Of a stretch of DNA of 40,619 nt, positions 31,530-33,742 are shown one piece after another. Within the stretch, counting starts at the first letter, position 1. Each line of letters opens with the position of its first letter. This stretch comes from an uncultured Opitutia bacterium (GTDB lineage: Bacteria > Verrucomicrobiota > Verrucomicrobiia > Opitutales > Opitutaceae), in assembly GCA_903855985.1 (NCBI GenBank), contig CAIOAO010000008.1, positions 1 to 40,619 of the forward strand, in the 5' to 3' direction. The notes beneath the pieces are model-generated. The model worked only from the letters and a program-made list of their open reading frames with translations, was not told the origin of the DNA and did no database searches. The translations under genes were made by a program, and so were the position numbers.

Positions 31530-31921
31530 GGGGAGGGCGCCGGGAAAATCACGGCCCCGGCCCGGGAGCCTAACCAGACGCCGAGGACGCAGAGCACCAC
31601 GGAGCCGACCACATACGCGGTGGCGCGCGACCAGTCGCCGAGGCGGAGCAGGTTGAGGGTCTGCAGGCTGAAGGCGGAGAACGTGGTGTAGCCGCCGCAG
31701 AGGCCGATCATGAGGAAGGCCCGGGTCTCGGTCGGGCTGATCTGACGTCCGCCGGCGGGCAGGGTGGCGAACAGGCCGATGAGGATGCAGCCGGTGATGT
31801 TCACGAGGAACGTGCCCCAGGGGAAGGGGCCGTCGAGGCGGACGGCGACCGTCTCGGTCAACCAGTGGCGGAGGATGCTGCCGAGGGCGCCCCCGAGGGC
31901 GATGAGGAGGTAGATGAACAT
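31526..31921 (-). CDS. crcB: Fluoride exporter CrcB/Fluc
   Basis: Small dual-topology fluoride channel that exports F-, 131 residues from the ATG at 31921. The four TM segments carry family motifs: LIALGGALGSILRHWL, GTFLVNITGCILIGL (Asn lining the pore), and GLCGGYTTFSAFSLQTLNLL with the central Na+-site/Phe-box region. An in-frame ATG at 31957 would lie inside the predicted fluoride riboswitch, so the 31921 start is preferred; it yields the usual MFIYLLIALGG beginning. It is regulated by the aptamer directly upstream, if that call holds. Confidence 0.94.
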   Translation of the reverse strand: MFIYLLIALGGALGSILRHWLTETVAVRLDGPFPWGTFLVNITGCILIGLFATLPAGGRQISPTETRAFLMIGLCGGYTTFSAFSLQTLNLLRLGDWSRATAYVVGSVVLCVLGVWLGSRAGAVIFPAPSP

Positions 31922-31945
31922 GACAAGAACCGGTGGTTGGGTTTT

Positions 31946-32010
31946 GGCAGGAGTCATCAGTCCCGCGGGACGGGACGGTTTACCCGGAAGGGAAGGCGGA
32001 ATCCATCGCC
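31946..32010 (-). promoter_or_regulatory. Fluoride riboswitch (crcB motif) candidate
   Basis: Read on the minus strand, the leader has the order of the crcB aptamer: hairpin GGCG-AUGGAUUC-CGCC (32010-31995), linker with AAACC, a 6-bp stem GUCCCG / CGGGAC with a UCCCG loop, then UGAUGACUCCU. The AUGG loop, AAACC and UGAUG are the conserved parts of known fluoride riboswitches. The long-range pseudoknot between the hairpin loop and ACUCC is weaker than expected (GGAUU against ACUCC, one mismatch). It ends about 25 bases before the crcB ATG. A U-run terminator is not seen, so control of ribosome access is more likely. Confidence 0.72.
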
Positions 32011-32098
32011 GCGCCGAGGAAAGGAGCTCGCGGCCGGTTTGGCAAGCGGCGCGAATCCGGCCTCGAAATTGCGCGCCAGCCGGACACAGTCACCGGGC

Positions 32099-33742
32099 TT
32101 GAGCGTTTTGAGGAAAATCTTTCCGCCCCTGTGGCTGGCCCTCGTGCTGGCGGCCCCCGGGCTGGGCGCCGGATCGCTGGCGTCCCGCGTCATCCTCCTG
32201 GCCAACCGCGACGATCCCGACTCGATGCGGATCGCGGAGCACTACGCCGCGCGCCGGGGCGTGCCATGGGAAAACATCCTCGCCCTCCCCATGGCGCAGA
32301 CCGAGACCATCAGCTGGCCGGAGTTCGTGGCGACGATCTGGCAGCCGGTGCAGGACGAACTCGTGCGCCGCGCCTGGATCGACGCGATCCCGATGACGCT
32401 GACAGACCCGGTGGGCCGGAAAAAATACGCCATCGGCGGACACCGCATTTCCTATCTCGTGATTTGCCGCGGCGTGCCGTTGCGCATTGCGAATGCGCCC
32501 GAGCTGTCCGCGCCGCGGCCGCCGCCGTTTGACCGGGCCGAACTGCGCACCAATGAGGGCGCGGTCGATTCCGAGCTGAGCCTGCTGACGCAGACGAATT
32601 ACCCGGTCAACGGCTTCGTGCCGAATCCGCTGTTTCAAAAAGACGCCCCGACCGGGTGGGAGCGGGCCGCGGTCGTGAAAGTGGCGCGGCTTGACGGGCC
32701 GACCGCCGCGGACGCCCTGGCGCTGGTGGATCGCGCCATCTTCGCCGAGCGCACCGGCCTGCTCGGGCGCGCCTATGTGGATGTGGCGAACAAGCACCCG
32801 GACGGCGACCGCTGGCTGGAGTCGGTGGCGGCGCAGCTCACGGCGCTGGGCTTCGACCTCGAGGTGGACCGTTTGCCCGCAACTTTTCCCGTCACGGCAC
32901 GCTTCGATGCGCCGGTGCTTTACTTCGGCTGGTACGCCGGTGACCTGACCGGGCCGTTCACGCTGCCGGGGTTTCAATTTCCGCCCGGCGCCATCGCGGT
33001 CCATATCCACAGTTTCTCCGCCGCCACGCTGCGGTCCGCCACCGCCGGCTGGTGCGGGCCGCTGGTGGCGCGCGGGGTGACGGCGACGGTCGGGAATGTC
33101 TATGAACCCTACCTCGATTTTCTGCACCGGCCGGATCTGCTCCTGCAGGCGCTGGCGCGGGGCGAGACGTTCGGGGATGCGGCGTATTTTGCCGAACCGG
33201 TGCTGAGCTGGCAGGCGATCGCGATTGGCGATCCGCTGTACCGGCCCTTCGCGCGGTCCTGGGCGGACCAATGGCAGGGGCGGGCCGGGTTGCCCGTCCG
33301 CCTCGGGGGTTATGCCACGCTACGGGAAGTTCACCTGCGGGAAGCCAGGCACCAGCCGGCGGAGGGGCTCGCCATCGCGCGCGCGGCCCTGGCGGCGCAG
33401 CCCACGCTCGCGCTGGGCTTCTCCCTGGCGCGTGAACGGGAGCAGGCGGGCGACCCGGGTGGCGCCGCGCGGGCGCTGCAGTTTGCGGGCCGGTTGGCCG
33501 GGTTTCCCCCTGACGATTGGGCGCTGGCGCTCGAAGCGGCCAGATTGTTGCAGCGCGTCCATGCGCCGGCCCAGGCAAAGAATATCTACGCCCATCTCCT
33601 GCCGGATCCGGCGCTGCCGGACGAATTGCGGGAGCCCGCTCTGCGCGAAGGCAGTGCGGCGGCGCTCGCCGCGGGTGACCAGGAACTGGCCCTGGAATGG
33701 GCCCGCGAGCTCGGGCGCCTCTTACCCGGGGAAAGAAAATAG
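32099..33742 (+). CDS. TIGR03790-family exported protein
   Basis: Member of the TIGR03790 family of unknown function, found in Verrucomicrobiota, Planctomycetota and some others. From TTG at 32099 the product is 547 residues with a signal peptide (LRKIFPPLWLALVLAAPGLG). Family segments: RVILLANRDDPDSMRIAEHY, RGVPWENILALPM, YLVICRGVPLRI, LYFGWYAGDLTGPF, PGAIAVHIHSFSAATLR and NVYEPYLDFLHRPDLLLQAL, then IGDPLYRPF. The C-terminal ~150 residues are Ala-rich helical repeats of TPR type. The TTG start is the least certain point: no ATG or GTG gives a signal peptide with a clean start. It is divergent from crcB. Confidence 0.83.
   Translation: MSVLRKIFPPLWLALVLAAPGLGAGSLASRVILLANRDDPDSMRIAEHYAARRGVPWENILALPMAQTETISWPEFVATIWQPVQDELVRRAWIDAIPMTLTDPVGRKKYAIGGHRISYLVICRGVPLRIANAPELSAPRPPPFDRAELRTNEGAVDSELSLLTQTNYPVNGFVPNPLFQKDAPTGWERAAVVKVARLDGPTAADALALVDRAIFAERTGLLGRAYVDVANKHPDGDRWLESVAAQLTALGFDLEVDRLPATFPVTARFDAPVLYFGWYAGDLTGPFTLPGFQFPPGAIAVHIHSFSAATLRSATAGWCGPLVARGVTATVGNVYEPYLDFLHRPDLLLQALARGETFGDAAYFAEPVLSWQAIAIGDPLYRPFARSWADQWQGRAGLPVRLGGYATLREVHLREARHQPAEGLAIARAALAAQPTLALGFSLAREREQAGDPGGAARALQFAGRLAGFPPDDWALALEAARLLQRVHAPAQAKNIYAHLLPDPALPDELREPALREGSAAALAAGDQELALEWARELGRLLPGERK

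Follow-up and report, generated by a model that had tools for sequence, protein, structure and literature searches.

A predicted fluoride riboswitch with a lineage-conserved pseudoknot mismatch upstream of crcB in an uncultured Opitutaceae bacterium

The window, i.e. the entire stretch of 40,619 nucleotides analysed here from an uncultured Opitutaceae bacterium, encodes on its minus strand the fluoride efflux transporter CrcB and a downstream EamA-family transporter (Table 1). A match to the complete Rfam fluoride riboswitch model RF01734 (model positions 1–64, E = 2.5e-9) was identified by cmscan in the leader of crcB; nothing else in the 40.6 kb window exceeds a gathering cut-off, and no second fluoride riboswitch match reaches E ≤ 0.001 across the 2.94 Mb of the assembly. 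The initial annotation had proposed a fluoride riboswitch preceding crcB from a series of short motifs on the minus strand, all of which are present in the claimed order, and the covariance search that it named as a check supports the proposal, as does the CRCB-family gene downstream. A divergent gene of the TIGR03790 family is located on the plus strand. As its profile match begins only at residue 108, the mechanically assigned start at 31865, which would render it antisense to both riboswitch and crcB, is probably incorrect. Same-strand EamA matches 3′ of the aptamer were also observed in 11 of 30 Opitutaceae loci (L001–L030), located behind crcB or (matches cut by the locus end) behind a gene named by eye as EriC/CLC-like, and one further locus (L019) contains an EamA match upstream on the opposite strand.

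Table 1. Features of the crcB locus and of its predicted fluoride aptamer (window coordinates; aptamer nucleotides numbered as in Bacillus cereus).
Feature	Position	Strand	Basis or remark
crcB, fluoride efflux transporter, 131 aa	31526–31921	−	Pfam CRCB, 2.3e-30; NCBIfam PRK14206.1, 158.7 bits (cut-off 140)
EamA-family transporter, 141 aa	31104–31529	−	Pfam EamA, 1.6e-21; start overlaps crcB stop (GTGA)
TIGR03790-family gene, divergent	31865–33742	+	361.5 bits; profile match from residue 108 (about 32186)
RF01734 fluoride aptamer, full model	31941–32019	−	cmscan, 44.7 bits (gathering cut-off 34)
P1 hairpin GGCG/CGCC with 8-nt loop AUGGAUUC	31995–32010	−	Sequence; P1 columns paired in 80/80 rows of alignment A1
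P1 parts: GGCG; loop AUGGAUUC; CGCC	32010–32007; 32006–31999; 31998–31995	−	
P1 loop: A10; U11; pseudoknot strand 12–17	32006; 32005; 32004–31999	−	
Joiner hairpin CCC(UUCC)GGG	31983–31992	−	Absent from Rfam model structure line
AAACC	31981–31977	−	Sequence
P3 stem GUCCCG/CGGGAC	31976–31971/31965–31960	−	Sequence; covariance model alignment
UGAUGACUCCU, U38–U48 (U38, A40, U41, G42 and U48 inside)	31949–31959	−	A10-U38 and A40-U48 contacts; fluoride-site strand
Pseudoknot 3′ strand G42–C47 (GACUCC)	31950–31955	−	C44 (31953) opposite U15 (32001), mismatch
Pseudoknot pairs G12-C47, G13-C46, A14-U45, U15×C44, U16-A43, C17-G42			
Proposed ligand-free hairpin GAUGA/UCAUC (codons 2–3)	31913–31958 (31958–31954/31917–31913)	−	Start codon inside

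The order of P1 and P3 agrees with RF01734, as does the location in a leader belonging to a fluoride-resistance gene, and five of the six pseudoknot positions are able to pair, the sixth being U-C. In the B. cereus numbering, the pseudoknot joins nucleotides 12–17 with 42–47 (PMC10687018, PMC11077080), and the A10-U38 and A40-U48 contacts have been described (PMC8752731, PMC10687018). The window aptamer retains all letters of the fluoride site and of the linchpin pair (A10, U38, A40, U41, G42 and U48). Known members bind fluoride with a KD of approximately 50 µM (PMC8814607), and the change U41A rendered the B. cereus riboswitch unresponsive to fluoride (PMC11077080). One Opitutaceae aptamer (L017, locus positions 1501–1576 of the minus strand) carries UGAAG at the conserved UGAUG, a natural U41A, with crcB still downstream.

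The initial annotation had placed the crcB start at 31921 rather than at 31957, which is borne out by the conservation of this start among relatives and is of practical value for annotation. The AUG at 31957 corresponds to aptamer nucleotides A40-U41-G42, and the crcB start is located 27 nucleotides past U48. In each of the 34 (of 49) Opitutaceae loci with a downstream crcB match, the alignment begins at residue 1, 3 or 4 of the 131-aa form. Nucleotides 40–42 of the aptamer (AUG) are in frame with crcB in 11 of these 34 loci, about the one third given by chance, and stop-free in ten, and the codon at this site is AAG in L017; a coding frame across the segment is thus not conserved in relatives. 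The readable genes downstream of Opitutaceae aptamers are mostly crcB (the 34/49 loci above) or EriC/CLC-like, and the best crcB match among named stretches belongs to a Lacunisphaera MAG (L050).

The pseudoknot of the window aptamer spans six positions (12–17/42–47, GGAUUC/GACUCC) and consists of five Watson-Crick pairs and a single U15-C44 mismatch. Its nearest-neighbour energy is −2.1 kcal/mol compared with −6.7 kcal/mol for the consensus helix, in keeping with the interrupted and weakened pseudoknot described in the initial annotation. The interruption is, however, no peculiarity of this aptamer. Aptamers were identified in 45 of 150 searched genomes of the Opitutaceae, the family of the window, at 49 places, of which 47 (window included) were readable; L017, with A at position 41, and L049, without a proper P1 loop, were left out. 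Position 15:44 is non-Watson-Crick in 43 of these 47 aptamers (UC 33, UU 6, AC 3, CU 1) and paired in four (GC 3, AU 1), and the other five pseudoknot positions are paired in 47, 47, 46, 47 and 47 of the 47. Since nearly all close relatives examined share the mismatch, it is no local defect and represents a natural variant that merits testing. All six pseudoknot positions are paired in three Opitutaceae aptamers; in two of these (L011 and L031), the gene that follows was named by eye as metallophosphoesterase-like and is no fluoride exporter.

Seven other groups were searched: the classes to which an Agrobacterium and an Acinetobacter genome belong, the phylum of the window outside the Opitutaceae, and the phyla represented by one genome each of Acidobacteriaceae, Bacillus, Dyadobacter and Propionibacterium. 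Here, 15:44 is paired in 145 of 152 aptamers, or in 144 of 147 without five sub-cut-off matches of doubtful parse. As these loci, at most 30 per search, are weighted towards the best-scoring matches and related sequences are not independent, no probability is given for the contrast between lineages. Loci from twenty genomes chosen by sequence pattern were excluded from the 152. In all, nine of 237 parsed loci were left out, and from later counts also the five sub-cut-off matches just mentioned (L244, L246, L318, L320 and L321); L208, L209 and other sub-cut-off matches were kept. A scan of GTDB genomes with a pattern forbidding G15 yielded at least 120 stretches, and a strict check of P1 and P3 accepted 51 of the 120 listed and failed 69, the genuine-looking L113 and L120 among them. 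Among the matches listed, the 51 accepted stretches carry UC (22), UU (14), AC (7), CU (6) or AU (2) at 15:44; many of them come from Rhizobiales and Acetobacteraceae, and some from Verrucomicrobiaceae. Although the pattern allowed C-C, none was found in these 51 stretches among the matches listed, and throughout all sets C-C is confined to two sub-cut-off gammaproteobacterial matches (L244 and L246). U-U and U-C can hydrogen-bond within a helix, whereas C-C cannot do so without a proton, and the absence of C-C thus fits a stacked non-Watson-Crick pair; it is weak evidence, as C15 is confined to few lineages. An alignment (A1) was built from 80 of 83 available sequences (L080, L124 and L168 left out); as 33 of its 80 rows were picked by the pattern forbidding G15, it does not gauge the frequency of the mismatch. 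Positions 16:43 and 17:42 are paired in all 80 rows of A1, and position 17 is C in 77 rows and U in three. C17-G42 does not require the mismatch, since it is also common in fully paired aptamers, and 45 aptamers combine it with a paired 15:44. A separate accumulation of aptamers was observed in Acidobacteriaceae bacterium TAA 166 (ATWD01000001.1; loci L063, L153, L170, L181, L184, L186 and L188–L199), whose genome contains 20 fluoride aptamer matches, 16 of them above the cut-off; 18 of the 20 are located within 1.697–1.827 Mb of one contig, and among those read, seven carry A-C at 15:44.

The window aptamer also contains an additional hairpin in the joiner between P1 and P3. Under the stricter of the hairpin rules, which is used for all counts quoted here (looser rules were also tried), it is present in 47/47 Opitutaceae aptamers, whose joiners gave 21% when shuffled, and in 23/147 aptamers of the seven other groups; over all sets, shuffled joiners gave 0–21% depending on the set. 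Aptamers with a pyrimidine-pyrimidine 15:44 carry the hairpin in 40/40 cases in the Opitutaceae, in 40/42 in the pattern set (among the matches listed), in 4/6 in the twenty pattern-chosen genomes and in 2/3 in the seven other groups. For aptamers with a paired 15:44, the corresponding counts are 4/4 in the Opitutaceae and 21/144 in the seven other groups, including 11/21 in other Verrucomicrobiota. The association of mismatch and hairpin is strong, with exceptions in both directions, and a strict rule, by which the pyrimidine mismatch would occur only with the extra hairpin, was tested and is not absolute. In A1, each of the four hairpin pairs shows changes in both strands, and 90% of cells are paired; 28 of the 80 rows, including the window, lack the outermost pair. 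The full named structure exceeds every slid version of itself both in cells paired and in covariation score. In four Opitutaceae aptamers (L002, L007, L010 and L014), the same joiner appears by eye to hold another hairpin-like insertion. Taken together, the comparison shows that the 15:44 mismatch is a conserved lineage trait, mostly pyrimidine-pyrimidine between intact pairs and usually accompanied by C17-G42 and the extra hairpin.

Simple consensus scans of 31880–32200 found neither a terminator-like nor a sigma-70-like site. In 46/47 Opitutaceae loci, at least three of nucleotides 42–47 are predicted to pair with downstream sequence that extends no further than the fourth codon of the presumed gene (mean z −2.6; z < −2 in 27/47), and in several of these loci an AGG just 5′ of the AUG is held in the competing hairpin; some relatives (L008, L016 and L039) give z > 0 and lend the hairpin no support. 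Among mismatch aptamers, mean pairing is lowest at nucleotides 44–45 and higher at 39–43 and 46–48. The ligand-free hairpin proposed for the window has an energy of −8.3 kcal/mol (z −1.77), with 11 of 200 shuffles as good; a different shuffle on a somewhat longer segment gave z −2.15. When the segment is cut before the AUG, the hairpin disappears (z +0.15); an earlier test cut in this way found no overlap with nucleotides 45–47 in the window and was positive in 39/48 Opitutaceae loci, and it was the addition of 12 nucleotides of coding sequence that changed the result for the window. The UCAUC strand may merely follow from the CrcB protein sequence, and L012, being identical to the window at the competing hairpin, adds little. 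No Shine-Dalgarno sequence is evident in the window, unlike in many relatives. In Gluconobacter oxydans 621H, no transcription start site was found for the fluoride leader, whose RNA-seq coverage resembles that of its ORF and differs from that of the terminating riboswitches there (PMC5756330); another G. oxydans strain carries the U-U form (L177). We consider a translational mode of control to be well supported by these predictions for the Opitutaceae and moderately so for the window locus, the latter because the window hairpin reaches only z −1.77 and vanishes when cut before the AUG. Co-adaptation between the strengths of pseudoknot and competitor was also considered (rho −0.41 over 194 aptamers); it is weak or inconsistent within groups (rho 0.01 in the Opitutaceae, n = 47), and was dropped because the overall correlation is driven by differences between groups.

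We therefore favour, with a probability of roughly 0.7, a fluoride riboswitch acting as a translational ON switch, in which fluoride stabilises the pseudoknot and crcB, probably along with the overlapping EamA gene, is turned on when fluoride rises. The EamA gene probably shares a transcript with crcB and is a possible member of the fluoride regulon. U15-C44 (U-U or C-U elsewhere) would stack in the helix as a non-Watson-Crick pair, so that the pseudoknot would still form, but more weakly, and would be locked by fluoride and the A40-U48 linchpin. Without fluoride, nucleotides 39–47 would leave the aptamer, pair at the crcB start and hide it from ribosomes. A weaker pseudoknot might be better suited to control of translation, where the switch is read at or close to equilibrium, than to a race against an intrinsic terminator. 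A single mismatch does not necessarily ruin the switch, since single-molecule work identified A40-U48, and not the pseudoknot pairs, as the main lock in B. cereus (PMC8752731). Hertz et al. found that switching of terminator constructs, under the conditions of their assay, requires a wobble at pseudoknot position 1 (17:42) (PMC11077080). It counts against the proposed ON switch that the change of U17 to C, giving C17-G42, nearly abolished switching in the terminator context of B. cereus (PMC11077080). A strong C17-G42 pair combined with a break two pairs inward could be an alternative means by which the helix remains able to open. We further hypothesize, tentatively and with some doubt, that these aptamers form a structural subtype tuned for translational control, in which the conserved U-Y 15:44 is functionally coupled to the joiner hairpin and the latter braces the weakened pseudoknot in the ligand-bound state; if so, fluoride sensing would depend on a tertiary contact absent from solved aptamers.

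A decayed aptamer, in which the mismatch is a damaging mutation that leaves crcB constitutively off or on, would agree with the low predicted stability of the pseudoknot relative to the consensus, and the pseudoknot change U45A/C46U moved the B. cereus RNA from its docked state (PMC8752731). However, the recurrence of the feature in 43/47 Opitutaceae aptamers with flanking pairs kept, its presence in Rhizobiales and Acetobacteraceae, and the intact fluoride-site nucleotides and linchpin pair make decay extremely improbable. That the change at 15:44 alters ligand or affinity, and thus defines a variant class, might be suspected from the consistent change, in whole lineages, of a helix position near the fluoride-binding strand; the retention of A10, U38, A40, U41, G42 and U48 in the window aptamer and the prevalence of crcB or EriC/CLC-like genes downstream render this very unlikely.

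The initial annotation had ascribed the interruption to one missing G (GGAUU with ACUCC); it compared five bases per strand and therefore missed C17-G42. The corresponding bulge register, in which C44 is flipped out and U15-A43 and U16-G42 pair, is possible for every sequence with U15, the window included, and would retain at the pseudoknot end the U-G wobble found important in B. cereus (PMC11077080). With a nearest-neighbour energy of +0.2 kcal/mol it is nevertheless less favourable than the mismatch register by about 2.3 kcal/mol, and it is impossible for relatives with C15 (L048) or A15 (L008, L025, L037 and L043), in which U16-A43 and C17-G42 remain. It would also free C17 to vary, yet C17 prevails in A1, and we regard the bulge as unlikely. 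Unlikely, too, is transcriptional control, either Rho-dependent or via an unrecognised terminator: predicted terminators overlap the motif in many cases elsewhere (PMC2864571), and 3′ of the aptamer the window leader is rich in C and has little structure ahead of the AUG, but the simple scan of 31880–32200 returned no terminator-like site and the predicted pairing of the aptamer 3′ strand near the start codon in 46/47 Opitutaceae loci argues for translation.

The riboswitch class is known, and the Rfam full alignment probably contains sequences of this kind. No description of the 15:44 variant or of the joiner hairpin was found in the available portions of PMC11077080, PMC13273304, PMC2864571, PMC8752731, PMC10687018, PMC7266159 and PMC8814607, nor among the titles and abstract openings listed by literature searches, although Baker 2012 or Ren 2012 may already draw an optional joiner hairpin; within these sources, the lineage-conserved 15:44 variant was thus not found described. 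According to mutational work, the pseudoknot base pairs decide how well the riboswitch switches (PMC11077080). A mismatch kept throughout a lineage, with intact flanks and an added hairpin, offers a ready-made experiment on stability versus responsiveness in RNA switches, and cautions that a single sequence gives no ground for calling such helices degenerate.

The window aptamer shares with RF01734 (crcB motif) P1, P3, the pseudoknot strands, the conserved loop AUGG, the UGAUG...CCU strand and the gene context, and differs from it in the non-Watson-Crick 15:44 and in the joiner hairpin, for which the Rfam structure line has no counterpart. With the strands that we take to be those of the Thermotoga petrophila pseudoknot, all six positions are paired and the nearest-neighbour energy is −10.4 kcal/mol, far more stable than in the window. 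The T. petrophila aptamer, known from a crystal structure, has the overall plan and a strong pair at pseudoknot position 1 in common with the window aptamer (PMC11077080). Whereas the B. cereus crcB riboswitch combines an intrinsic terminator with six pairs, of which that at position 1 is the U17-G42 wobble, and the window aptamer a U-C mismatch with C17-G42 and no terminator found by simple scan, both share the 12–17/42–47 pseudoknot and the A10-U38 and A40-U48 contacts (PMC11077080, PMC8752731, PMC10687018).
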